Positions 21,120-44,418 of a stretch of DNA of 49,153 nt are shown piece by piece. The stretch's first letter is position 1, and each line of letters begins with the position of its first letter. The stretch is from Bacteroidales bacterium (lineage in GTDB: Bacteria > Bacteroidota > Bacteroidia > Bacteroidales > P3): positions 1 through 49,153 of the forward strand of contig JAFUGA010000064.1 in NCBI GenBank assembly GCA_017469625.1. The letters run 5' to 3'. The notes beneath the pieces were generated by a model. That model did not search any database, was not told the DNA's origin, and saw nothing but the letters and a program-made list of their open reading frames with translations. Made by a program: the position numbers and the translations under genes.

Positions 21120-21185
21120 AATAAAGATTTAAAAAAATAGAACAAATATTTAAAATTTTAAAACTTTGTTCTATCCCAAAGAAAG

Positions 21186-21580
21186 TGGACCTGCAGGGAT
21201 TCGAACCCTGGTCCAAACAAGAAACACCCAAGTTTTCTACACGCTTATTTTGTTTCTCATTGTCGGAAAAGAGCAATAAACAAACAACTTCTCTCTTTTC
21301 TTATCTCCTAAACTTTCATCTATAATTCGGAGAAAATTATAAACTAAACCTGTTTAATGATGCACCTCTTGTTCCTTAGTTTCAGGTTGCAAACTTTGGA
21401 GAGATGTCTTGCTCAACACCTTGTGTTGATAAAGAGTAACTTACTGTACTTCGGTTACGCAGCAAGAGCGTAGTTATTTTCGCCAATTAATTTTTCTGCA
21501 ACCGAGATTAAAGTTATCTGTTGCCTGTAACTGCGTGCTTGCCTGACCATTTACCTTGCTGTCAAAACCAACCCAAGCCC
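21186..21580 (-). ncRNA. ssrA: Transfer-messenger RNA (tmRNA)
   Basis: About 395 nt. The 5' GGGCUUG (21574-21580) pairs with CAGGUCC at 21187-21193 to form the acceptor stem, using wobble pairs, and the discriminator A is at 21186. The T-arm GGUUCGAAUCC is intact. The CCA end is not encoded. The tag frame, read from GGC at 21482-21484 to TAA at 21455-21457, gives GENNYALAA. tmRNA with SmpB rescues stalled ribosomes and marks the product for proteolysis. A -7 box lies just upstream. Confidence 0.93.
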
Positions 21581-30095: not shown

Positions 30096-30422
30096 ATGAT
30101 TGTAATTTTTAAAGATATAGATTTGGAAGAACTTTTGAAGACAGGCAAGAGTAAAAAGTATAAAAATATTTCAAGAAATAAACAATTATTAGATAAACTC
30201 AATAAATTATATAAATTATTTATAAACTCTAAATGTATAGAAGATATTGCTATTTACAGTTACCTGCATTACGAAAAGTTAAAACATAATTTGACGGGAA
30301 TTTCTTCTGTACGTCCTTTTGGTAATCAAAGAGTAGAAAGATTACTATTTATTGAAAAAGATGATACAATAACGATAGAGATTTTAGAATTAGATAATAC
30401 TCACTATGGAAACAAAAAATAA
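30096..30422 (+). CDS. higB: HigB-like toxin of a type II toxin-antitoxin system
   Basis: A 108-residue protein of the RelE/HigB-like group seen in Bacteroidota: it starts MIVIFKDIDLEELL and ends with SYLHYEKLKH, VRPFGNQRVERLLF and NTHYGNKK. Such toxins usually cleave mRNA on the ribosome. The last 17 nt overlap the antitoxin gene. It is homologous to the protein at 42141-42467, which has the same length and the same overlap. Confidence 0.85.
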   Translation: MIVIFKDIDLEELLKTGKSKKYKNISRNKQLLDKLNKLYKLFINSKCIEDIAIYSYLHYEKLKHNLTGISSVRPFGNQRVERLLFIEKDDTITIEILELDNTHYGNKK

Positions 30423-30834
30423 CAACGGTTTCACTCCGTTTAAAGCAGCACACCCAGGCGGTATATTGGCAATGGAACTTGAGGAAAGAGGTATTTCTCA
30501 AAAAGATTTTGCAAAACAAATAGGAATGTTTCCCTCAAATCTTAACCGTATAATAAAGGAAAAAGCCCCTATTACTGAAGCAATAGCCGAAAAATTGGAA
30601 CAAGCATTGGGAACCAAGGCTTATTTGTGGATTGCCATGCAAAAAGATTATGAACGAGATTCATATCTTATTGCACGTAGCACAAAGAAAAAAGAAACTA
30701 CACCTCAAAATAGCATGAATATACAATTATCTTATATAGAGAATTTAACAAATGCTTTAAACCGTTTGTCAGACCAGATAGAAGTGTTGATTGCACAAAA
30801 TCAAAACAATTCAAAACAAACATTAGTACATTAA
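30406..30834 (+). CDS. higA: HigA-like antitoxin
   Basis: A 142-residue protein with an XRE helix-turn-helix: HPGGILAMELEERGISQKDFAKQ, then PSNLNRIIKEKAPITEAIAEKL (about residues 18-70). The C-terminal part is polar and probably folds on binding the toxin. It would neutralise HigB and repress the promoter upstream. The start codon lies inside the toxin gene (17-nt overlap). Confidence 0.87.
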   Translation: METKNNNGFTPFKAAHPGGILAMELEERGISQKDFAKQIGMFPSNLNRIIKEKAPITEAIAEKLEQALGTKAYLWIAMQKDYERDSYLIARSTKKKETTPQNSMNIQLSYIENLTNALNRLSDQIEVLIAQNQNNSKQTLVH

Positions 30835-34500: not shown

Positions 34501-35043
34501 TCTAATACCGGTGGTCAAGCTTCAAAAGCTACTCCTGTAGGGGCAATAGCAAAATTTGCTGCATCGGGCAAACGTGTTAAGAAGAAAGACCTTGGTATGA
34601 TAGCAACAACTTATGGTTATGTTTATGTTGCACAAGTATCTATAGGTGCTAATCCTGCACAATACATCAAGGCTTTACGTGAGGCTGAGGCTTACAATGG
34701 ACCTTCTCTAATCATTGCTTATGCTCCTTGTATCAACCATGGAATAAAAGCAGGTATGGGAAAAACTCAAGCAGAACAAAAGAAAGCAGTTGAATGTGGA
34801 TATTGGCATCTTTGGAGATATAACCCACAACTTGCAGAACAAGGACAAAATCCATTCTCTTTGGATTCAGCAGAACCTGATTGGAGCAAATTCCAAGCAT
34901 TCATTGACGGCGAAGTTCGTTACAATTCTTTGAAAAAAGCTTTCCCAGAAGAAGCTGCAGAATTGTTCAAAGCAGCAGAAACAAATGCTAAATGGCGTTA
35001 CAATTCATACAAACGTATGGCTTCAATGAATTGGGGTGAATAA
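31507..35043 (+). CDS. nifJ: Pyruvate:ferredoxin (flavodoxin) oxidoreductase
   Basis: A 1178-residue single-chain enzyme that oxidises pyruvate with CoA to acetyl-CoA and CO2, passing electrons to ferredoxin. Seen in order: the pyrimidine-binding domain (YPITPSSPMAEYVDEW), the gamma-like domain (near residues 420-600), the ferredoxin domain with two 4Fe-4S motifs CIQCNQCALVCP and CTGCGNCADVCP (about 697-760), and the thiamine pyrophosphate domain with CAGCGE and GDGAAYDIGYGGLDH. Full length and intact. Its last codons and its terminator are partly duplicated at 37445-37534. Confidence 0.97.
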   Translation: MAKEKKFLTCDGNQAAAHVAYMFSECAAIYPITPSSPMAEYVDEWSANGRKNLFNETVKLVEMQSEAGAAGAVHGSLQAGALTSTFTASQGLLLMIPNMYKIAGEMLPGVFHVTARTIASHALSIFGDHSDVYACRQTGFAMLSSASVQEAMDLAGVAHLSAIRGRIPFLHFFDGFRTSHEIQKIEALSNEDMMPLVDWEAIKRYKDNALNPEHPVTRGTAQNPDVFFQAREAINPFYDAIPDIVNEYMQKVGEITGRTHKPFEYYGDPEAENIIVAMGSVCDTIKETIDYLAKKGEKLGLITVHLYRPFSAKYFFNVLPKSVKRICVLDRTKECGAHGEPLYLDVVEMFNSCNERPMIIGGRYGLSSKDTTPAQMIAVFENLKSSEPKNQFTVGIVDDVTKLSLTVGEEISMATTGTFEAKFYGLGADGTVGANKNSIKIIGNNTNKYCQAYFSYDSKKSGGFTCSHLRFGDNPIRSPYLVTTPDFVACHVFSYLRQYEVLKGIKKNGTFLLNSMYDAEQTVKHLPVKVKKILATNDINFYIINATKIAEEIGLGNRTNTILQSAFFKIANVIPYELAVEKMKEAIVKSYGKKGENIVNMNYAAVDRGGDVVKVEVKKEWLNEDESKDAVTNNHPDFIKNVVDVINAQEGDSLPVSAFVGREDGTFPAGTAKYEKRGIASHVPEWIPANCIQCNQCALVCPHAAIRPFLINADEEKLLPAGTETLKTTGKEFEGLRFRMQVSPLDCTGCGNCADVCPAKTKALEMKPLKEDNADKERWNIISEQVTNKSNLTDITKNIKNSQFAQPLFEFSGACAGCGETPYVKLVSQLFGSRMMVANATGCSSIYSASCPSMPYTKDANGRGPAWANSLFEDFAEFGLGMATATRKMRDRVEDLMRKGLECEKCSQKEKALFQKWIDNREDAKATEEVYNELVPMLQQCGCDICSRIYENRQFIIKKSQWIIAGDGAAYDIGYGGLDHVIASGENVNILVVDTEVYSNTGGQASKATPVGAIAKFAASGKRVKKKDLGMIATTYGYVYVAQVSIGANPAQYIKALREAEAYNGPSLIIAYAPCINHGIKAGMGKTQAEQKKAVECGYWHLWRYNPQLAEQGQNPFSLDSAEPDWSKFQAFIDGEVRYNSLKKAFPEEAAELFKAAETNAKWRYNSYKRMASMNWGE

Positions 35044-35120
35044 TAGATTTCAATCTCATTGATATATAAGAACAGTCCGTTACAATTAAGTAACGGATTG
35101 TTTTTCTGTTAATAAATCTT
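35021..35120. repeat. Direct repeat, copy 1: nifJ 3' end, terminator, endonuclease 3' end
   Basis: This segment aligns with 37445-37534: CTTCAAT, GGTGAATAATA, TTGATATATAA, AACAGTCCGTTACAA, AAGTAACGGA, TGTTTTTC and GTTAATAA occur in the same order in both, separated by small indels. A shorter third match lies at 37800-37828. The copies bracket the RM cassette. Confidence 0.75.
35071..35108. terminator. Shared bidirectional terminator of nifJ and the HinfI-like cassette
   Basis: AACAGTCCGTTAC (35071-35083), loop AATTAA, GTAACGGATTGTT (35090-35102), then a T run. On the minus strand the stem also encodes the last codons of the endonuclease (KQSVT-stop). The same hairpin core recurs at 37484, 41678 and 44384. 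Confidence 0.8.
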
Positions 35121-35970
35121 GTAAATATCCACCTAATGTTCTATATATTTGTCCTTCTTGTTTCTTAAAATAGTCATATAATAACCGTAGCACTTTCTTT
35201 TCGGGAAAAATTATAGGGAATATTTGTTGAATTATATCGTCATTAGTAAATAGTTTTCTATAAATAGTAGGTGATAAATCTTTTATTTCATTAAATACAT
35301 TAGTAGTGTTCTTATCAAAATTTATTTCTGGCATATCTGGTAGTCCATTTTTCCATTGTTCTAAATATAATAAAATTTCATTCCAAATTTTAATATTGAA
35401 ATCTGCTATTTCACTAATAAATAATTGTTCCCCATAGAAAAGATAAGGTATACAACCATAATCATTTTTTAACTTATGCATTTCTTGTAAATAATAATTT
35501 CTATTCTTTGTCAAAGAATCATCAATAAACCACATAATAGGTATTATTTCGAATTCTTTATACTGCAAAGTCAATGCATAGTATTTATTTTCAAAATTAT
35601 TAAATTGTCCAACTTTCTTTGTACTGTCGTGGTCATCTCTTACCTTTTGTTCTATCATATACAACTTATTATCTTTACTGAATAATTGGTCTATATTTAA
35701 CTCTTTATCTTGTAAAAATATCCTCTTTGTATGTAAAGTAAATCCAACTGCTTCAAAATACCGTTCAAATATAAATTCTAATGCATCTCCGAAACGGATT
35801 TCATGAGATTGAGTAATATTCTGAATTAACTTTGTCTTCGGTTTTGTCGGACGAAACAATCCTGTGTATCTTTCTGAATTTTCAGCAATTTTTTTTATCA
35901 AATCACTGTAACTATCTTCAAATAATTTACTATTTAAACAGTATTTAAAATATTCATAATCCAATATCAT
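35086..35970 (-). CDS. Type II restriction endonuclease, probably HinfI-like (GANTC)
   Basis: A 294-residue protein without signal peptide or membrane helix, encoded directly downstream of a HinfI-type methylase with a 4-nt overlap (ATGA). A plausible PD-(D/E)xK core lies near residues 85-135: FGDALEFIFERYF, then NIDQLFSKDNKLYMIEQKVRDDHDST, where D/E and the ExK triad (EQK) can be seen. Specificity is inferred from the partner methylase. The C-terminus KQSVT is encoded by a terminator hairpin. Confidence 0.75.
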   Translation of the reverse strand: MILDYEYFKYCLNSKLFEDSYSDLIKKIAENSERYTGLFRPTKPKTKLIQNITQSHEIRFGDALEFIFERYFEAVGFTLHTKRIFLQDKELNIDQLFSKDNKLYMIEQKVRDDHDSTKKVGQFNNFENKYYALTLQYKEFEIIPIMWFIDDSLTKNRNYYLQEMHKLKNDYGCIPYLFYGEQLFISEIADFNIKIWNEILLYLEQWKNGLPDMPEINFDKNTTNVFNEIKDLSPTIYRKLFTNDDIIQQIFPIIFPEKKVLRLLYDYFKKQEGQIYRTLGGYLQDLLTEKQSVT

Positions 35971-37046
35971 TGCTCATTCCTCCTTTCATCTGCTAAATAT
36001 CTTAAAGAATCTATACTAACAAATTCTCCGTTATATTCACAATAAAAATAATCCCAACCATTATTATTGATTCTATTTAAGAATCTGGCAGATACTTTAT
36101 GAATAGAATCCGTATAATCTTCGAAAGTTACGTATCCATTATCATTTAAAACAACTGTTTTCGTACGGTCCTTACTATAAAGTAATTGTCCTTTTCTAAG
36201 ATATTGCAGTGAAATCAATTCTTTTAATGATATTTTCGGAGGTTTTACATCTAACTTGTTTTCTGAATAAATATCTAATATGGTTTTTATATCTTCTATT
36301 CTTTGTTTTGCTACATTTATATACTTTTCTTCTTTCTCTATCCCAATATAATGTCTTCCCAATCTTTTAGCAATGGCACCTGTTGTTCCTGTTCCAAAAA
36401 ATGGGTCTAATATAATATCATCTTTCTTCGTGGAAGATATTATAACATTATAGAGTAGTTGTTCTGGTTTTTGCGTAGAGTGTATCTTCTTGCCAACTTC
36501 ATCTTTCAGACGTTCATTACCTATACAGATACCAATATTCCAAACACTTTTCATTTGTTTGTTGCCATTTAATGCTTTCATCGTTTTATAATTGAAACAA
36601 TATTTTGCACCTTTATTTTTAGAACACCAAATAAGTGTTTCGTGAGAATTTTGGAATCTTGTTCCTGCAAAATTGGGAACAGCATTAGGTTTTGACCAAA
36701 TAATATCATTTAATATCCATAATCCTAAATCTTGCATTATATATCCAAGTCTGAATATATTTTGAAAAGAACCTATTACCCAAATAGCACCGTCTTTTTT
36801 CAAAATTCTTTTACATTCACCTAACCACGATTTACAGAAGTTGTCATATTCCTGTAAACTTGAAAATTTATCCCAAACATCATCTACTCCGTTGAAATGC
36901 GTTCCGTCTGTCCGTAATAATTCACCTTCCGTTTGCATATTATACGGTGGGTCGGCAAATATTAAATCTATAGACTCCGATGGTATTGTTTTTAATACCT
37001 CAATACAATCACCTTTAATGATTATGTCTTTTTCTAAAATTGGCAT
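35967..37046 (-). CDS. Beta-class N6-adenine DNA methyltransferase, M.HinfI-like (GANTC)
   Basis: A 359-residue enzyme with motif order IV then I, as in the beta class: DPPYNMQTEGELLRTDG at residues 32-48 (catalytic DPPY), then GSFQNIFRLGYIMQDL, HSTQKPEQLLY and DPFFGTGTTGAIAKRLGRHY (SAM motif I). The C-terminal 90 residues match the extra domain of M.HinfI/CcrM, with SARFLNRINNNGWDYFY. From memory it is strikingly close to M.HinfI along its whole length, so GANTC recognition is likely. It protects DNA from the endonuclease encoded after it. The leader of its transcript is unusually structured. Confidence 0.9.
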   Translation of the reverse strand: MPILEKDIIIKGDCIEVLKTIPSESIDLIFADPPYNMQTEGELLRTDGTHFNGVDDVWDKFSSLQEYDNFCKSWLGECKRILKKDGAIWVIGSFQNIFRLGYIMQDLGLWILNDIIWSKPNAVPNFAGTRFQNSHETLIWCSKNKGAKYCFNYKTMKALNGNKQMKSVWNIGICIGNERLKDEVGKKIHSTQKPEQLLYNVIISSTKKDDIILDPFFGTGTTGAIAKRLGRHYIGIEKEEKYINVAKQRIEDIKTILDIYSENKLDVKPPKISLKELISLQYLRKGQLLYSKDRTKTVVLNDNGYVTFEDYTDSIHKVSARFLNRINNNGWDYFYCEYNGEFVSIDSLRYLADERRNEQ

Positions 37047-37076
37047 AACTTTTTATTTGTTTTTATGCGTTATGCC

Positions 37077-37164
37077 ATTCTCTAAAATATATTGCGAAGG
37101 CTATAAAATAAGCACGTGGATATTCACTTGCTTAATGTGTGGCCTTCGCAAAACCATAGAGAAT
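37077..37164 (-). ncRNA. Candidate structured leader RNA upstream of the methylase
   Basis: An 88-nt imperfect hairpin: ATTCTCT (37077-37083) with AGAGAAT (37158-37164), TTGCGAAGGC (37092-37101) with GCCTTCGCAA (37142-37151), and TAAGCACGTG (37109-37118) with CACTTGCTTA (37125-37134, one mismatch). It ends about 30 nt before the methylase start codon. There is no protein-coding explanation. Not a family I recognise; transcription is inferred from the upstream -7 box at 37332. Confidence 0.5.
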
Positions 37165-37241
37165 ACAAATAATTACCCACGTAAATGCAGGCGTTACTTT
37201 TGTCCGTATTCTCTATTATATGAAAGTTGCGAAGTTTCACA

Positions 37242-37298
37242 TTAAAATCTTGAACAAATAGCAAACGCTATTACTACTAAATTTATCAATTTCTTCAT
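37242..37298 (-). CDS. Possible 18-residue hydrophobic leader peptide
   Basis: ATG at 37298 opens the frame MKKLINLVVIAFAICSRF and a stop. It has basic ends and a hydrophobic middle, like a signal-peptide core or a small type I toxin. Its start codon lies in the loop of a hairpin (37287-37309) just after a promoter. It could be a leader peptide, a tiny toxin, or the remnant of a secreted protein. Coding is not proven. Confidence 0.3.
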   Translation of the reverse strand: MKKLINLVVIAFAICSRF

Positions 37299-37327
37299 AA
37301 AAGAAATTGGTCAAATCAACATTTGAC
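37287..37327 (-). promoter_or_regulatory. Two adjacent hairpins at the 5' end of the methylase transcript
   Basis: GTCAAAT-CAAC-ATTTGAC (37310-37327, 7-bp stem) abuts CAATTTCTT-loop-AAGAAATTG (37287-37309, 9-bp stem, 5-nt loop holding the peptide start codon). They begin 4 nt after the -7 box, so the RNA would start folded. Confidence 0.55.
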
Positions 37328-37331
37328 TCTG

Positions 37332-37339
37332 CAAAAGTA
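37332..37339 (-). promoter_or_regulatory. Putative -7 box of the HinfI-like RM operon
   Basis: Minus-strand TACTTTTG, about 285 nt before the methylase start codon. No nearer box is visible, so a long leader is expected. Confidence 0.5.
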
Positions 37340-37444
37340 AAACTTTTTCTTTTATTGACAAAAATAAAACTTTTATTTCTAAAAATAAACAATGTTTTGC
37401 ATAATAATGATAGTAAATATATAATCTAAACGAATAGTAAATTA

Positions 37445-37534
37445 CTTCAATATTTTGTGGGTGAATAATATTGATATATAAATAAAACAGTCCGTTACAA
37501 TCAAGTAACGGACTGTTTTTCGGTTAATAATCTT
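37445..37534. repeat. Direct repeat, copy 2, beyond the RM cassette
   Basis: It repeats 35021-35120 (nifJ 3' end, terminator hairpin, endonuclease 3' end). On the minus strand it still encodes ERLLTEKQSVT-stop, against DLLTEKQSVT-stop in the intact endonuclease, but no endonuclease body precedes it. Confidence 0.75.
37484..37520. terminator. Terminator hairpin, duplicate of the nifJ one
   Basis: AAAACAGTCCGTTAC (37484-37498), loop AATCAA, GTAACGGACTGTTTT (37505-37519), then T. No intact gene ends here on the plus strand, which fits a duplicated relic. Confidence 0.8.
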
Positions 37535-37583
37535 TCATCTATTTGATAAATTATAAAAAGACTGTGAAACTTTTGCTTATTTG

Positions 37584-37707
37584 TTTATCTGAGGTCTTCG
37601 GAATACCTATGCACTCAAACAAGTAAAGTTCACAGTTCAACACTGCGAACGTTTACCAACTTTACTTTTTAAGTGCTTTTATTCTGAGTTTCCGAAGTTC
37701 AGATAAA
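37584..37707 (-). ncRNA. Candidate structured RNA in the degenerate duplicate
   Basis: A 124-nt nested hairpin: TTTATCTGA (37584-37592) with TCAGATAAA (37699-37707), CTTCGGAA (37596-37603) with TTCCGAAG (37690-37697), GCACT (37611) with AGTGC (37672), AAGTAAAGTT (37621-37630) with AACTTTACTT (37658-37667), and an inner CAGT/ACTG. Orientation is inferred from the -7 box at 37762. It has the same position relative to promoter and terminator as the leader of the intact cassette. No known RNA family recognised. Confidence 0.5.
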
Positions 37708-37735
37708 TAAAAGATAAGTTGTAACGTCTTTATAT

Positions 37736-37769
37736 CAAATCAAAACTATTTTTGATTTGTGCAAAAATA
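37736..37769 (-). promoter_or_regulatory. -7 box and start-site hairpin of the degenerate duplicate
   Basis: Minus-strand TATTTTTG (37762-37769) followed after 2 nt by a 10-bp hairpin, CAAATCAAAA (37736-37745) with TTTTGATTTG (37750-37759). This matches the box-then-hairpin order at 37310-37339. Confidence 0.5.
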
Positions 37770-37799
37770 CAAAATTATTTTTATACACCGATTTATATA

Positions 37800-37828
37800 A
37801 TTACTTCAAGGTATTGTAGGTGAATATC
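37800..37828. repeat. Direct repeat, copy 3 (short)
   Basis: ATTACTTCAA, then TATTGTAGGTGAATA, against ATTACTTCAA, then TTTTGTGGGTGAATA at 37441-37467. It corresponds to the nifJ-end part of the repeat only. Confidence 0.5.
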
Positions 37829-37865
37829 CTGTAAGTTTATTTCACCTTATCAAAATACTTCAAAA

Positions 37866-37969: not shown

Positions 37970-38713
37970 CTATTTAAAGTATTCGTAAAGAAATAATGGA
38001 AATGAGTTTAAGATAGATACCACACAAAGTGGAGTATTTACATATTTTTCAATTTGATTATTAAAAATCCTTAATTGCTCTATACTTTGTTTGTTTTCAG
38101 GTATTTCATTTATTCCATTACATATATAATTGGCTTTGGAAATATTTTGTTCTTTCAAATATTTCCAATTATTTATTATAGTCTCATTATCTTTTTCTTT
38201 CAATACCAAAAAATCCAAAGATTTATAATCAGAAAAATTATGTGTCAATTTTTTAAATTGATTACAATTTTTTCGTTCTAATGTATATCTCCAATAATTG
38301 TCATCTGGCAATTGTTTTGTATATCTAATAGATTCTACCATTGGATAATTTATATACAACTTACCATTATCTGTTTCGTTGTCAAAATAGTTTAACAACT
38401 CTTTTATTTGAATATTCATTTGTTCTAATGACAAGAATTTATTATGAAAATCGTAATCAAAGAATAGAAATACTTGCGAATAATCCGATGTTTTTGAATT
38501 TTGCGAAAACGGAGAATCATCTTTATTTTTATACAAATCTTTCAACATAGGTACCAAATCTTCGTTTGTTTCTTTCATTTGTCTATACAATTCATAAATA
38601 TTATTACCAAAAGAACAAACAATACAATTATTTTCTCTTGGAAAAAATAATTTATTCAATGAATCAAAAATAAGAGGTTCTCTTTTCTCTCCTTCAAAAA
38701 CAAATAAAATCAT
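37970..38713 (-). CDS. Toprim-like partner protein of a two-gene ATPase defence module
   Basis: A 247-residue soluble protein, overlapping the ATPase gene by 4 nt. It begins LFVFEGEKREPLIFDSL, with the EGE/K arrangement of Toprim-like nucleases and RloB proteins. Later it has VFLFFDYDFHNKF (a DxD) and YINYPMVESIR. These fit an OLD-type nuclease domain on its own chain. Pairs of this kind include AbiLi/AbiLii and RloA/RloB, reported as phage-abortive systems. Which of these it belongs to cannot be settled here; nuclease activity is inferred. Confidence 0.6.
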   Translation of the reverse strand: MILFVFEGEKREPLIFDSLNKLFFPRENNCIVCSFGNNIYELYRQMKETNEDLVPMLKDLYKNKDDSPFSQNSKTSDYSQVFLFFDYDFHNKFLSLEQMNIQIKELLNYFDNETDNGKLYINYPMVESIRYTKQLPDDNYWRYTLERKNCNQFKKLTHNFSDYKSLDFLVLKEKDNETIINNWKYLKEQNISKANYICNGINEIPENKQSIEQLRIFNNQIEKYVNTPLCVVSILNSFPLFLYEYFK

Positions 38714-39810
38714 AGTTGAAATGTGTTACCTCTATATAATTTCTCTATATTATGACCAAACTTTAAGTCTTTATCTGTGCAGTTATTCAACGATTTAATT
38801 TTATTATCATTTATTATAAAATTACAATCAGGACGCAATAAATCATTAGTCATTAAATATGTATTATGAGAGGATAAAAATACTTGACAATTTAAAGAAA
38901 ATAAATATTTACAAACAGTATATGATAATTCAAAATGATAGTAAGCATCAAACTCATCTATAAAAACAAATGAACTATCATTCATTCGTTTTATCCAAAA
39001 ATAAAGCAGTCTTAAGGAAGACGTTCCTGTTGAAATTATATAGTCAAACTGAATCTTATTTCCGTTATAATTGCAAAACAAATAGTGGTCTGCTGGATTA
39101 GGCTCTATGAAATCAAACTTTTGATTACTTATTTGGTAAAGAAAATCAGAAAAATCCTTAACTAAATTATTCTTAATGATATACTCATCTAATAAAGCAT
39201 TTCCAGATAATTCTAATCCAATAAACTCTCTTACTTCCAAATTTCTAAACCAAAGCATTGAATTAGCAAAAGTTTGCAATTTAATTAAAGGGTTCTCTTT
39301 CTGTAAAGGAAACGATGTTAATAGAAAATTTACAACAGAAATATTATTAACATTATGTTTAAAATTTTCTTTCAATCCATCTTCCATTGGAAATTCTTCC
39401 GCTATAAAAAAATAATCAGGTTTGCGTTCAAAGATTTGTTTATTATTAACTACAAGTTTTTCTTGTAGCAATACTCCTGTAGCATTTTTTGAATAAGAAT
39501 AAAAAAGGACATCTTCATCAAACTTAAATGTATATTCAAAATCTACAGATTCAGATAATCTATTAGCATTTATAAAATTTACATAATAATCTGTTTTTTT
39601 CCATGTATGTGAAAGATGATACACTATATCAAACAATGCTAATGAAAAATTAGATTTTCCAGAGCCATTTGGTCCATAGATAATTCCGTTTTTTATGATT
39701 TCGTCTCTTATAACAAACTCATTAAAATCATAAGAAGCATGTTTGGATAAATCTATCTCTATTCTATCTTTAAACCCTCTATAATTTTTTACTGCAAATT
39801 TTACTAACAT
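38710..39810 (-). CDS. ABC/AAA-type ATPase of a two-gene abortive-infection-like module
   Basis: A 366-residue ATPase of the SMC/OLD-like group. The N-terminal NYRGFKDRIEIDLS is followed by Walker A GPNGSGKS at residues 46-53. Walker B FVFIDEFDAYYHFEL lies near 280-294 and a histidine switch in VFLSSHNTYLM near 312. The pattern is that of AAA_15/AAA_21 proteins in phage defence (AbiLi, RloA, PtuA, GajA relatives). No nuclease domain is fused to it; the next gene supplies a Toprim-like one. The start codon sits within a hairpin just after the promoter. Confidence 0.75.
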   Translation of the reverse strand: MLVKFAVKNYRGFKDRIEIDLSKHASYDFNEFVIRDEIIKNGIIYGPNGSGKSNFSLALFDIVYHLSHTWKKTDYYVNFINANRLSESVDFEYTFKFDEDVLFYSYSKNATGVLLQEKLVVNNKQIFERKPDYFFIAEEFPMEDGLKENFKHNVNNISVVNFLLTSFPLQKENPLIKLQTFANSMLWFRNLEVREFIGLELSGNALLDEYIIKNNLVKDFSDFLYQISNQKFDFIEPNPADHYLFCNYNGNKIQFDYIISTGTSSLRLLYFWIKRMNDSSFVFIDEFDAYYHFELSYTVCKYLFSLNCQVFLSSHNTYLMTNDLLRPDCNFIINDNKIKSLNNCTDKDLKFGHNIEKLYRGNTFQL

Positions 39811-40688: not shown

Positions 40689-41675
40689 ATGAAAAATATT
40701 AAATTTTTACTTGCAATAACAGTGATTATTTGTTTCTGTGCTTGTGGAGGAAAACAAACAAATATAAATAATAAAATAACAAGTGAATCTTCTACAGAAA
40801 AAAATTTTGGTGAGAGTATATTCTCCAATAATCCCGAAGAATTTATTGTTAATAATGACGAAATAGCAGATACTATTTTGAAAAGTATTTTTGATTATAA
40901 TTACTCCATTGATGTAGCATTTCCAAAAGATTATAAACAACAAGTAGTATGGTACAATGAGCGAAAAGATAAGACTATTAAATTCTTTAATGATATATAC
41001 CCTAACACAAAGTATACTACTCAAAAGAAAATAGATATAATATTCAATGCAATTAAAGCATATATAAGGGTAGACAAAGATAATTACAGTTCATGCATTG
41101 ATGAAAATATAATAACAATGTATCTTTTGTGTTATGATATTGTAAATATGGAAATGAATATAATAGATAAATATGACACCTTATTTTCTTCTGAAGTTGC
41201 ATATTTTGAAAATTTATGCAATCATATTTGTGAATTTGTAACAATGGAATATAAATATATTTATTATGGTGGTTCATTTGCACCACTTGGAATAACTGCA
41301 TCAAAAGTTCAGGCTCGAGATATAAGATTGAATGATTTAAAAATGGTATATGATGCATATAAAAACAACAACAGTGAGTATAATCCATATATTGATGATG
41401 TTAAAAAAAGATTTTTAAGTATGTTAGATAAAAGAGAACATGTTGTAACTGATTGGATAGGAATAGTAAAACAAACTGATGAGTATAACAGATTTACGGA
41501 AAATGATGAAAAAGAAGCGTTAAAACGAATTAAGAAAGAAAAAACTCTATTAGTTCAATCATTTAATAAATGGCTGGATAAAAGAATAACCTATATGGAT
41601 AATTATCCTAAAATATCGAATGCAACAATAAGAACTATCAATAACTTTTACGACCTAATAGACCCTATAGAATAA
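40689..41675 (+). CDS. Lipoprotein of unknown function
   Basis: It has 328 residues when started at 40689, which gives a lipoprotein signal with lipobox FCAC and lipidated Cys19, followed by GGKQTN. A longer frame would overlap the DUF2442 gene. The mature part is mostly helical-looking and rich in tyrosine and charged residues. I do not recognise a family. It starts 7 nt after the DUF2442 stop and so may be cotranscribed. A hairpin terminator follows. Confidence 0.6.
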   Translation: MKNIKFLLAITVIICFCACGGKQTNINNKITSESSTEKNFGESIFSNNPEEFIVNNDEIADTILKSIFDYNYSIDVAFPKDYKQQVVWYNERKDKTIKFFNDIYPNTKYTTQKKIDIIFNAIKAYIRVDKDNYSSCIDENIITMYLLCYDIVNMEMNIIDKYDTLFSSEVAYFENLCNHICEFVTMEYKYIYYGGSFAPLGITASKVQARDIRLNDLKMVYDAYKNNNSEYNPYIDDVKKRFLSMLDKREHVVTDWIGIVKQTDEYNRFTENDEKEALKRIKKEKTLLVQSFNKWLDKRITYMDNYPKISNATIRTINNFYDLIDPIE

Positions 41676-41677
41676 AC

Positions 41678-41717
41678 TAAAACAAGTCCGCTACTTAATT
41701 GTAAGGGACTTGTTTTA
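41678..41717. terminator. Bidirectional terminator between lipoprotein and second HigBA
   Basis: TAAAACAAGTCC (41678-41689) pairs with GGACTTGTTTTA (41706-41717); TAC and GTA pair inside after two mismatches, loop TTAATT. A diverged member of the GTCCGTTAC hairpin family. Confidence 0.75.
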
Positions 41718-41734
41718 CACTTCATCATTTAGAT

Positions 41735-42157
41735 TTATTTTTTCAAAACGATATTATTTTGTTTTTGAAGTTGAGAAATAAATGCAATAAGAGTATTGTT
41801 CATATTCTCCACTTGTTTTTGCAACTTGATAATATCGGACAATGGCATAACAATAGGTTCTTTCTCTTTATTTTTCTCTCTTTCCCTCTCCCTTATCAAT
41901 CGTAAATCTTCATAATAACCTGCCTGCAACCTCAACCAAAGATCTGCATCTATTCCAAGTATTTGTTCCAATTTCTCTGCCAAATCCTTGTTTATATCCC
42001 TTCGTCCATGAATGACAGCTGATAAATTACTTTGAGCAACACCTATCTGTTTTGCAAAATCCTTCTGTTTTATTCCTCTTGCTTCCAATTCGTCAGCGAT
42101 AATCCCTCCGGGATGTACTGCCATAAACGGCACAATTCTTTTATTTTTTGTTTCCAT
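41735..42157 (-). CDS. higA: HigA-like antitoxin, second pair
   Basis: A 140-residue protein with an XRE helix-turn-helix: HPGGIIADELEARGIKQKDF, then GVAQSNLSAVIHGRRDINKDLAEKLEQIL. It is homologous to the antitoxin at 30406-30834, most strongly in the first 80 residues; the C-terminal arms differ, as expected if they determine toxin pairing. It starts 17 nt inside the toxin gene. Confidence 0.87.
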   Translation of the reverse strand: METKNKRIVPFMAVHPGGIIADELEARGIKQKDFAKQIGVAQSNLSAVIHGRRDINKDLAEKLEQILGIDADLWLRLQAGYYEDLRLIREREREKNKEKEPIVMPLSDIIKLQKQVENMNNTLIAFISQLQKQNNIVLKK

Positions 42158-42467
42158 AGTGAGTTTTATCTATTTCTAAAAGTTTAACCGTTATTTTATC
42201 TTCATCTTCTATAAATAATAATCTTTCTATTCTTTGATTACCAAACGGACGCACAGAACTAAGTCCTGTATATGTATGTTTTAATTTTTCATAATGTAAG
42301 TAACTATTAGTGGCAACTTCCTTTATATTTAAAGAATGTATAAAAACGTTATAGGTGCGTATTAACTTTGTAATTAAAACTTTATCTCTTGCAATATCTT
42401 TGTACTTTCTGTTGCTTCCTGTTTCTATTAGTTCTTTTAAATCTTTATCTTCAAATATTACAATCAT
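42141..42467 (-). CDS. higB: HigB-like toxin, second pair
   Basis: A 108-residue protein from the start at 42467, giving the same N-terminus (MIVIFEDKDLKELI) and length as the toxin at 30096-30422. A longer frame to 42524 would run back through the promoter. The SYLHYEKLKH, SSVRPFGNQRIERLLF and THYGNKK segments are shared. Divergent from the restriction gene at 42614. Confidence 0.87.
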   Translation of the reverse strand: MIVIFEDKDLKELIETGSNRKYKDIARDKVLITKLIRTYNVFIHSLNIKEVATNSYLHYEKLKHTYTGLSSVRPFGNQRIERLLFIEDEDKITVKLLEIDKTHYGNKK

Positions 42468-42494
42468 AAAAATAAACTTATTAGTTCCATTTTG

Positions 42495-42551
42495 CAAAAT
42501 TATAAAATTTATCAATATTTGCAAAATATTTTGATATATTTATTGATAAAT
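42495..42551 (-). promoter_or_regulatory. Promoter and inverted repeat between HigBA and the second RM system
   Basis: Minus-strand TAATTTTG (42495-42502) with TTG at 42522-42524. ATTTATCAATA (42507-42517) and TATTGATAAAT (42541-42551) form a perfect 11-bp inverted repeat overlapping this promoter. It is a candidate antitoxin operator that could also affect the divergent RM promoter. Confidence 0.5.
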
Positions 42552-42586
42552 ATAATAATATATGTATTGCAAATGAATTTATTTTG

Positions 42587-42594
42587 TACCTTTG
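42587..42594 (+). promoter_or_regulatory. -7 box of the second RM operon
   Basis: TACCTTTG, 19 nt before the ATG at 42614. It lies inside an upstream extension of that frame, which decides for 42614 as the start. Confidence 0.55.
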
Positions 42595-42613
42595 CAAAAG
42601 AAAAGATATTATT

Positions 42614-43234
42614 ATGATACCAACAATAATTGAAAATATTTGTCAGTATTTGCAAGAAAAAGATTTTTCCCTATCCTCTAATTTTACAAATGGTAGAATA
42701 AATTCTTCTGTAAATGAAGAAATGATATTAAACTTGATAACACAAAAATTTGATATTGTTAAACCCAGAGCAAGAGAATGGTTTGATTTTGCAATAGAAG
42801 ACAATGATAAATTTTATCCTGTAAATATAAAAATTACAGATACAACTCATACTGATAATTTAAGTTGTAAATTGGGAATATATTATGCTCTTACTGGTCT
42901 TTTACCAGATATACCGAATGAAGTAAGTTGGGAAAAATTTTTTGCAAAATTATATAATAACATAGGAATGTATAAAGATAGAGATTATTATTTTTTAATT
43001 GTGAATAAAAATAACAAAAAAGATATTTTTGCTAATTCATTAAAAAATTTGCAAGAAATATATCCAAATGGCAATAATCTCCCTTTTCAATGTAAATGGG
43101 AGATAAATAGAATTTCCTCAGATAGAACTTTTGAAGAGGCAAAAGATTTTATTTTAAAAACTTTAGGAGATTCTATAAAACAAAGAAGTAACATCTATTT
43201 TAGTTTTCAAAAATATTTTTCTAATTATGTATAA
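42614..43234 (+). CDS. Type II restriction endonuclease of the second RM system
   Basis: A 206-residue soluble protein whose 3' end overlaps the methylase gene by 8 nt. A PD-(D/E)xK-like centre is visible: EWFDFAIEDNDKFYPVNIKI, with D58 and the NIK of residues 71-73, similar in layout to HincII/EcoRV-type enzymes. NGNNLPFQCKWEINR follows further on. The recognition site cannot be read. The call rests on this centre and on the coupled methylase. Confidence 0.7.
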   Translation: MIPTIIENICQYLQEKDFSLSSNFTNGRINSSVNEEMILNLITQKFDIVKPRAREWFDFAIEDNDKFYPVNIKITDTTHTDNLSCKLGIYYALTGLLPDIPNEVSWEKFFAKLYNNIGMYKDRDYYFLIVNKNNKKDIFANSLKNLQEIYPNGNNLPFQCKWEINRISSDRTFEEAKDFILKTLGDSIKQRSNIYFSFQKYFSNYV

Positions 43235-44360
43235 CGTAGAGCAATTAGGACAAGTTTTTACACCACTTTCTATTGTTTCTCAGATGCTTGCTTTACGCAA
43301 AAACAATGGACGAGTTTTAGAACCTTCGTGTGGAGATGGGGCTTTCTTTCATCAAATTCCTTCTTGCATAGGTATAGAAATAGATAGTAATCATTGTCCA
43401 GAGGGGGCGTTGAATATGGATTTTTTTGATTACCCTCTGAGTGAAAAGTTTGACACCATAATCGGTAATCCTCCTTATGTGCGTTACCAAGATATTGATA
43501 CACACACAAAAGAGAAATTAAACTCTTCACTCTTTGATGAAAGAAGTAACCTATATCTGTTTTTTATAGAAAAATGTTTAAAACATCTGAATACAAAGGG
43601 GGAACTTATTTTCATTACTCCAAGAGATTTTCTAAAGGCTACTTCAAGCATTAAACTCAACCAATATTTGTTTTCTTTGGGAACTATAACTGATATTATT
43701 GATTTAGGAGATAGTAGAATATTTAAAGGTTTCAATCCCAACTGCATTATCTTCCGATTTGAGAAAGATAATTTTACAAGAAAAACCAATGTTTATAAAG
43801 AATTTGTTTGCTCAAATGGTCAGTTGCTTTTTACGGACAATAATTACCCATTTGATTTTAGTGATATTTTCTTTGTAAAGGTGGGTGCTGTGAGTGGTAA
43901 TGACAAAATTTTTGAAAGTGAAGAATTTGGCAACAAAGATTTTGTTTGTTCTTTTACCTACAAGACAGGCAAAACACGAAGAATGATTTTCAATGAAAAG
44001 AATGATTATCTTTTGCAGTTCAAAGAAGAGTTATTGAATAGAAGGATAAAGCATTTTGATAAAAACAATTGGTGGCAATGGGGTAGAAATCACTATGTGT
44101 CAGATGAGAAAAGAATTTATGTAAATACTAAAACAAGAAACAAAAAGCCATTCTTTCTTCACCCTTGCAAAGATTATGATGGTTCTGTTCTTGCTATATT
44201 TCCAAAGAATCAAGATGCAGATTTAGAAGATATGTGTTTGGAACTAAATAATGTAAATTGGGAAGAATTAGGTTTTGTTTGCGATGGTCGTTATTTGTTC
44301 TCACAGAAAAGTCTTCAGAATACACTGTTGCCTGAAACTTTCAGAAAATTTTATAAATAA
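43227..44360 (+). CDS. Gamma-class N6-adenine DNA methyltransferase of the second RM system
   Basis: A 377-residue enzyme with motif order I then IV: GQVFTP at the start, SAM-binding LEPSCGDGAFF (31-41), acidic EID at 51-53 and catalytic NPPYVRYQ (81-88). The second half, about 200-377, is a target-recognition region with WWQWGRNHY. It belongs to the TaqI/Eco57I-like family of adenine methylases. Sequence specificity is unknown. A terminator hairpin follows. Confidence 0.87.
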   Translation: MYNVEQLGQVFTPLSIVSQMLALRKNNGRVLEPSCGDGAFFHQIPSCIGIEIDSNHCPEGALNMDFFDYPLSEKFDTIIGNPPYVRYQDIDTHTKEKLNSSLFDERSNLYLFFIEKCLKHLNTKGELIFITPRDFLKATSSIKLNQYLFSLGTITDIIDLGDSRIFKGFNPNCIIFRFEKDNFTRKTNVYKEFVCSNGQLLFTDNNYPFDFSDIFFVKVGAVSGNDKIFESEEFGNKDFVCSFTYKTGKTRRMIFNEKNDYLLQFKEELLNRRIKHFDKNNWWQWGRNHYVSDEKRIYVNTKTRNKKPFFLHPCKDYDGSVLAIFPKNQDADLEDMCLELNNVNWEELGFVCDGRYLFSQKSLQNTLLPETFRKFYK

Positions 44361-44383
44361 GAAAAACTATTCTAAGAAAAAAG

Positions 44384-44418
44384 AAAAGTCCGTTACAATT
44401 AAGTAACGGACTTTTTAT
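44384..44418. terminator. Bidirectional terminator at the island/korC border
   Basis: AAAAGTCCGTTAC (44384-44396), loop AATTAA, GTAACGGACTTTT (44403-44415). Core and loop are the same as in the hairpin at the other island border (35071), save one base. Confidence 0.85.

Follow-up and report, generated by a model that had tools for sequence, protein, structure and literature searches.

The contig JAFUGA010000064.1 of a Bacteroidales bacterium (assembly GCA_017469625.1, positions 1 to 49,153 of the forward strand; the whole stretch analysed is called here the window) carries a restriction-modification (RM) operon next to the 3' end of nifJ and, beyond it, a second unit that repeats part of the operon's surroundings and has a structured RNA of its own. 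Is this second unit the wreck of a duplicated RM cassette, as the initial annotation proposed, and what are the structured RNAs found in both places? Our analysis indicates that both RNAs are very probably 5' leaders of one large family, standing behind Bacteroidota-type promoters, with the RM operon expressed through one of them and the other left as an orphan. The second unit is, in all likelihood, not a gutted RM cassette and consists mostly of a second member of this leader RNA family.

The RM operon and the region in front of it contain the following features (positions are those of the window):

35086..35970, minus strand: type II restriction endonuclease gene of the HpyAIV family (NCBIfam NF045832, 242 bits with a cut-off of 160; PADLOC REase_II, E 7e-78)
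35967..37046, minus strand: N6/N4 DNA methyltransferase gene, first in the RM operon (Pfam PF01555, E 9e-65; CcrM-like, under that model's cut-off)
37042..37076, minus strand: start-codon hairpin GGCAUAAC/GUUAUGCC, arms 37069-37076 and 37042-37049, with the ATG (37044-37046) in the 3' arm (sequence)
37102..37278, minus strand: core of the RM leader RNA, a divergent family member (model R1; 0.87 identical to the leader on contig C37 of the same genome)
37332..37362, minus strand: RM promoter, made of TTTG (37359-37362), 19 nt and TACTTTTG (37332-37339) (sequence)

The endonuclease had been annotated as HinfI-like; HpyAIV-family enzymes and HinfI presumably both cut GANTC, and the nearest sequence in the PDB is a marginal match. 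In the promoter, we take TTTG at 37359-37362 to be the upstream element. The leader of the operon is ~280 nt long, and by eye it has its promoter upstream and its gene downstream on the same strand. TAnnTTTG is given as the -7 box in PMC9723704. Model R1 of the family, built from 12 members with the RM leader excluded, matched this leader at 32.8 bits (E 8e-4 in the window). The leader precedes the RM operon and probably controls it.

The second unit and the repeat that ties it to the nifJ side of the operon comprise:

35021..35120, no strand assigned: nifJ end, terminator (hairpin within 35071-35104) and last endonuclease codons, first copy of the repeat (sequence, alignment)
37440..37467, plus strand: so-called second nifJ end, 28 nt (alignment scores: 37799-37826, 20; G009 upstream region, 18; nifJ, 17)
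37484..37519, no strand assigned: second copy of the terminator hairpin, now the end of the orphan leader RNA (alignment, folding)
37501..37533, minus strand: remnant of the endonuclease 3' end, RLLTEKQSVT* (sequence reading)
37531..37538, minus strand: ATGAAAGA, putative start of a lost helix-turn-helix (HTH)-like gene, where homology to contig C28 of relative G009 ends (sequence comparison)
37550..37736, minus strand: core of the orphan leader RNA (R1, 162.5 bits, being itself in R1; 94% identical to G009 C28; fold z -12.2)
37736..37769, minus strand: start-site hairpin of the orphan leader (37736-37759) and -7 element TATTTTTG (37762-37769), with no clear upstream element (sequence)
37799..37826, plus strand: so-called third nifJ end, upstream of the orphan leader promoter and common to G009 C28 (alignment scores)

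The promoter, start-site hairpin and structured RNA without enzymes that had been described for this unit are all there: the minus strand of 37484-37769 resembles a complete small transcription unit with a -7 box, a start-site hairpin, a very stable RNA and a terminator, and 37480-37800, terminator included, folds at -99.3 kcal/mol (z -12.2). As the orphan is a member of R1, its R1 score is not independent; its kin were first found by BLAST. In a genome search, 37531-37848 matched G009 C28 with 88-91% identity over 304-320 nt, and other places in the genus matched less well. Behind the matching part, G009 has a 37-codon frame beginning MKDTVHIGQIIKAELRRQG, an HTH-like stump whose start resembles, by eye, the intact small HTH-like open reading frame (ORF) of locus L054; intact ORFs of this kind stand behind the leader copies of L054, L128, L133 and L148. 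They fall under all Pfam and NCBIfam cut-offs, and the name HTH-like rests on inspection by eye and two weak Pfam matches. In the window the homology stops at ATGAAAGA, which is fused to the endonuclease end, leaving the -7 box present and the downstream gene absent. As judged from these comparisons, the orphan is the leader of a small HTH-like gene that lost its body; fused to the duplicated endonuclease end and terminator, it would yield a free RNA of ~280 nt.

The two structured RNAs had been read as copies of each other, which their sequences contradict. They are 0.65 identical, and among 111 leaders compared each ranks far down the other's list of kin (85 of 111 from the orphan, 68 of 111 from the RM leader). 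The nearest kin of the RM leader are methyltransferase leaders, C37 in its own genome (0.87) and C214 in G003 (0.84). The RM leader and the orphan RNA thus appear as one family on different branches, not as sister copies.

What, then, is duplicated? According to the initial annotation, 35021-35120, with the nifJ end, terminator and last endonuclease codons, returns at 37445-37534, and the two segments are indeed collinear, with 77% identity over 101 columns. The local score against 37440-37850 is 54, and 500 dinucleotide shuffles gave a mean of 14.0 and a maximum of 21, so the match is well above shuffled sequence. The core of the repeat (35071-35115 versus 37486-37530, 93% over 45 nt) spans the terminator hairpin and the last endonuclease codons; read off the sequence, the minus strand of 37533-37501 gives the peptide listed above, and the endonuclease gene ends in ...DLLTEKQSVT* (last ten codons and stop). 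These two components hold, and the nifJ component is weak: the nifJ end alone (35021-35070 versus 37440-37485) scores 17, which 3 of 2000 shuffles matched, and unrelated places in the window score 16. The supposed third nifJ end aligns to the nifJ end with a score of 14, lower than the 20 that it reaches both with the second copy and with the region upstream of the G009 C28 RNA, and in G009 nifJ lies on contig C57, the homologous RNA on contig C28; this claim we abandon. The alignment thus points to a local duplication of the endonuclease 3' end and terminator as an event that took place.

It is improbable that the whole RM cassette was duplicated in tandem at nifJ and that its second unit lost the enzymes and kept leader, hairpin and promoter. 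The collinear repeat of terminator and endonuclease end, with endonuclease codons retained at 37501-37533, would fit such an event, but we consider the rest of unit 2 not to be RM-derived: at 94% its RNA resembles a G009 copy that has no neighbouring RM genes, while its identity to the RM leader is 0.65; in addition, its start codon fits the HTH-like gene and its third "nifJ end" is not nifJ. From the tandem-duplicate reading there remains the local duplication, the rest of unit 2 not being degenerate RM. An empty site was nearly found, for one part only: 37531-37848 has its counterpart in G009 without adjoining RM genes or nifJ. That the 45-nt repeat involves no duplication and is a terminator sequence common in the genus is unlikely, although hairpin copies do occur at 44378-44416, at 41673-41717, on contig C41 of the same genome and, in G001 and G011, behind unrelated genes; the match extends beyond the hairpin into endonuclease codons, and the exact perfect stem was found twice in its own genome and in 3 of the 21 genomes. 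The latter counts also speak against the repeated hairpin being a house terminator or an uptake-like sequence, and both ideas were rejected.

The sequence that follows nifJ was compared in 15 relatives: AGTCCGTTAC is found in G001, G004, G005 and G006, variants of it in G002, G009 and G010, and the other eight differ. In G004 this site holds a decayed RM system, with an endonuclease remnant of the last 148 codons 80% identical to that of the window and an RM-type leader 76% identical; an RM system of such kind at nifJ therefore predates the species of the window. By eye, the content of the site differs by species (G000, G001, G002 and G004: RM, a BspA-type gene, a DNA methylase cluster and decayed RM). 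Varied accessory modules after nifJ are what would be expected of an insertion hot spot.

How large is the family to which the two leaders belong? At E<=0.001, R1 found members in 32 of 61 genomes (its own and 60 relatives), often several per genome. A second model, R2, was built from 75 members, its alignment excluding five of 85 loci with reverse-strand matches, and found members in 31 of 296 genomes across the phylum, its own included, at E<=1e-4; the other 265 had none under this threshold plus stricter filters. The best R2 matches of 29 other genomes show, by eye, the same strands in the same order. Scanning named genomes with a DNA pattern gave at least 120 stretches. Among the matches listed, 80 loci carry Bacteroidota titles with the exception of one Synergistales metagenome-assembled genome, and the taxa include Paludibacteraceae, Muribaculaceae, Alistipes, Prevotella, Barnesiella, Tannerella and others, as assigned from record titles and, where titles were vague, from the known placement of the taxa. 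Rfam 15, scanned with the window and 35 loci, holds no family for the leader RNAs; the matches above threshold were only tmRNA, tRNA, 5S and cobalamin, all elsewhere, with others far under threshold. No description of the family was found in the literature searched, with subscription papers, bioRxiv and supplements outside its scope, and candidate lists (PMC8040213) could hold parts of it. This is, apparently, a widespread and undescribed leader RNA family, and its existence, nested structure, position and portability are shown by computation. Separately, 19 leader matches were counted in the order-level relative G052; several of them lie no more than a few hundred bases from where a contig stops, which would fit an assembly interrupted at repeats.

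The position of the RNA is that of a leader. Counted in 40 members with enough flank (58 of 98 lacked it), an ORF of at least 100 aa starts within 250 nt downstream in 35, an ORF diverges on the 5' side in 2, and TAnnTTTG lies upstream in 36, versus 7 of 40 on the opposite strand. Ten of 161 leaders had no ORF behind them. By a simple and crude secretion rule of our own, 109 of 151 downstream ORFs look secreted (97 of the 124 with at least 100 aa), and 141 of 501 mechanical ORFs of at least 150 aa serve as background. The Pfam and PADLOC scan covered 110 of the 151, in which BspA-type repeats (12) and the Por secretion tail (10) were accompanied by PF01555 and ResIII (two each) and, as single cases, Eco57I/MmeI-like methylases (L106, L113), a PLD-helicase (L109), PF01555 enzymes (L093, L154) and one ZorA match by PADLOC. 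The protein behind L107 is 58% identical over 110 residues to window ORF 42584-43234, part of the other RM-like pair of the window. A retron was also considered, as was 6S RNA; reverse transcriptase is not among the 25 commonest of the 119 Pfam families of these 110 downstream proteins.

In the genome of the window itself R2 has 18 matches, two of them, neither used in building R2, being weak (E 0.004-0.005). Six stand before methyltransferases, and two others precede a TIR protein and a protein kinase, respectively. The enzymes behind the six are PF01555 in the window, Eco57I on C37, EcoRI_methylase on C41 and C45, and type III-like PF01555 on C21 and C42; 3 of the 10 PF01555 places in this genome have a leader. 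On a frequency of about one methyltransferase per hundred genes, which is a guess of our own, 6 of 18 would be far above expectation.

Several leaders seem to have travelled with their promoters. Over 332 nt the RM leader of the window matches the C37 leader with 88% identity; the alignment begins upstream of the promoter and breaks off at the start codon, and the enzymes behind the two leaders have no similarity by BLASTP (E 1.0). G003 C214, standing before a D12-type enzyme, has a leader 86% identical over 237 nt, so that two methyltransferases belonging to other Pfam families are preceded by a promoter-leader-start block 86-88% identical to that of the RM operon. The start-codon hairpin of the RM operon likewise recurs before four other methyltransferases. 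In all, 5 of 13 leader loci (C23, C37 and C45 of the same genome; C214 and C24 of G003) have the start codon inside GGCAUAAC/GUUAUGCC; they precede methyltransferases of four Pfam families (N6_N4, Eco57I, EcoRI and D12). One arm of the hairpin is kept at G010 C17. Promoter, RNA and start-codon hairpin can thus be read as a portable block on methyltransferase genes of other families, and the leader seems to have been shifted between genes as a ready-made control unit.

In the fold common to the family, helix P1 closes the structure, helices P3-P6 form a long rod to which a 5' strand is tied by a pseudoknot, and the 3' strand runs out in a U-run; many members also have a helix P7, in which the 3' strand pairs with sequence before the start codon. 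MAFFT with RNAalifold on 12 members gave merely 18 pairs, and the fuller structure comes from per-sequence pair probabilities and the model alignment. Covariation is strong in the nested structure: in 100 model-aligned members 84.5% of its cells are paired, versus 39.7-45.6% when slid. Double changes occur in 63 of 71 pairs (shuffled mean 54.0), with 246 further pair types (198.2), neither being reached by any of 500 shuffles, and all four Watson-Crick types are present in P3a and P4. The pseudoknot S:A, between 5' strand AGCGU and rod ACGCU, is 87.1% paired, with 13 further types versus 9.2 (0 of 500 shuffles). An anchored test for P7, defined after examples had been seen, found the downstream complement in 68 of 140 leaders, with a permuted mean of 18 and a maximum of 30 in 1000; of 173 leaders, 151 had the anchor and 140 were left after merging duplicates. 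The P7 types are GGACA, GGCAC, GGGAC, GGAAC and GGTAC; for the type of the orphan, GTTTC, no P7 was found (0 of 3); the RM leader is not among the 140. The 3' strand of the rod, B, can also pair with strand C before the U-run. B:C is 84.2% paired with a covariation score of 0.298 versus 0.208 (0 of 500 shuffles), in a strand comparison that left out 1 of 98 members with short strands, and a U-run of at least 4 follows C in 98 of 100 members. As a side observation, 12 of 98 leaders (L060, L057, L065, L117, L119, L130 and others) carry a second conserved motif between the leader RNA and the start codon, 45-85 nt after the U-run (for example ACCGAGGGGCUURAUGGGAUAACAAAGC), versus ~0.0017 per 140 nt over all loci.

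From this architecture we infer regulation, switching and a signal. The leader would be transcribed first and fold, later events would set how much gene product is made, and the leader would gate expression of the gene behind it. We prefer transcription attenuation, at odds somewhat below even, because strand C, which lies before a U-run, resembles A and could pair with B: a factor would shift the RNA between the rod (A:B) and a terminator (B:C with the U-run), and in the RM type the start-codon hairpin would add translation control. A more ambitious version is doubtful, namely a riboregulator used throughout the phylum, with one fold and one common signal or RNA-binding factor gating RM, TIR and surface-protein genes, new genes being recruited by transplant of a block such as that on the DNA methyltransferases of four Pfam families.

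Several results weigh against these proposals. The diversity of the downstream genes suggests no single ligand; 12 of the 18 own-genome matches are R2 members with inflated scores (C21, C42 and C45 are not in R2); and three of the six methyltransferase leaders of this genome (C21, C41 and C42) lack the start-codon hairpin. The nested counts of 63 and 246 were made on an alignment fitted to the same structure, S:A pairs with double change are not above shuffles (111 of 500), the unanchored P7 test made at first was weak (36 of 98 versus 19.6, maximum 28), and P7 is absent in the AGTTC type (0 of 19). On the two measures least inflated by relatedness, B:C is not above shuffles (4 double-change pairs versus 3.3, 179 of 500; 16 further types versus 14.9, 114 of 500), and part of its signal could be indirect, through the resemblance of A to C. 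When single strands are folded, the rod is more stable than the terminator state, with a median difference of 15.4 kcal/mol (range 4.5 to 36.6; 94 members, 4 of 98 outside the set limits being left out), and the minimum-energy fold uses A:B in 91 of 94. A passive two-state (bistable) switch is disfavoured by these energies, the rod being strongly preferred, and was rejected. For attenuation a partner or co-transcriptional timing would be needed, because folding favours the rod to this extent and the support for B:C is mixed.

We give translation control or mRNA protection almost the same odds as attenuation. That the leader stabilises the mRNA or controls translation, with the U-run merely part of P1, is accordingly a serious possibility that we hold just short of our preferred one: the U-run is paired in P1, P7 links the 3' strand to the sequence before the start codon, the start codon of the RM type is hidden in a hairpin, and the rod state is strongly favoured, but a 3' strand complementary to, and partly covarying with, rod strand B would be needless for a pure stabiliser. 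Very improbable is an action as DNA, in which a miniature inverted-repeat (MITE)-like or recombination element would use the hairpin for movement and carry the genes as passengers. The element is dispersed and multicopy, its rod is nearly palindromic so that the reverse strand scores 20-39 bits, leader blocks are common to different genes, and one downstream gene is a recombinase. On the other side, orientation and promoter are fixed, the strands are asymmetric (162.5 versus 20.4 bits) with extra pairings, and transposase is absent from the 25 commonest Pfam families of the downstream proteins. Mobility on phages or plasmids was likewise discarded, one pattern giving 0 matches on viral contigs and one query no match on plasmids.

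Among known systems, the leaders resemble riboswitches and attenuators of the terminator/antiterminator class in their 5' position, competing strands, U-run, pseudoknots and several copies per genome. Members of that class have one pathway downstream, whereas the leader family precedes secreted, RM and defence genes and differs in energies that strongly favour the rod. In timing methyltransferase and endonuclease production, the RM operon recalls control by C proteins, which are protein regulators, unlike its RNA leader and start-codon hairpin. RM gain with long target duplication, also raised in the initial annotation, is similar in that the end of a neighbouring gene is repeated beyond the cassette; in the window only the terminator and the endonuclease end are securely repeated.

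According to PMC11697453, FopS and GibS of Bacteroides are, like the leader family, multicopy Bacteroidota RNAs with their own promoters; FopS is described there as a trans-acting small RNA that has an entry in Rfam and is built of a single-stranded 5' part followed by one terminator hairpin. Identity with them was rejected on the long rod with closing helix and the lack of an Rfam match of the leader RNAs. Flavobacterium psychrophilum, of the same phylum, has structured 5' regions and Rfp RNAs, including 64 unassigned structured leaders (PMC9723704); single cases may belong to the leader family, and the text of that paper, supplement excluded, describes no such family among them. Human microbiomes yielded 3161 candidate structured RNAs, some palindromic and in Bacteroidetes (PMC8040213). 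Fragments of the leader family could be among them, and the text, tables excluded, names no candidate matching it in length, gene context or description.

Other loci of the window were noted beside these. Just beyond the orphan RNA lies a two-gene pair (37970-39810, minus strand), one gene encoding an AAA ATPase, which PADLOC assigns to the candidate defence system PDC-M12 (E 2e-69 and 2e-122). A second RM-like pair (42584-44416, plus strand) has a methyltransferase (PADLOC MTase_II, E 3e-157) and ends in a copy of the nifJ-type terminator hairpin; no leader RNA was detected at 42584-44416, and ORF 42584-43234 received no family name from the Pfam and NCBIfam search. Two similar toxin-antitoxin-like pairs on opposite strands (30096-30834 and 41735-42524) are HigBA-like by eye, with an HTH on the antitoxin side and a relative in G001 (L073). 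A tmRNA gene lies at 21183-21580 on the minus strand (Rfam RF00023, 128 bits).

In conclusion, Bacteroidota are a dominant gut and environmental phylum, and the finding, if true, would mean that it holds a large conserved RNA family missed by Rfam 15 and by the literature searched. Near-identical leaders on methyltransferases of different families would make the effects of the leader separable from those of the gene. Restraint of RM genes after transfer is usually explained by control proteins; the leaders described here, if they act as proposed, would point to an RNA-based restraint of RM and accessory genes after their movement.

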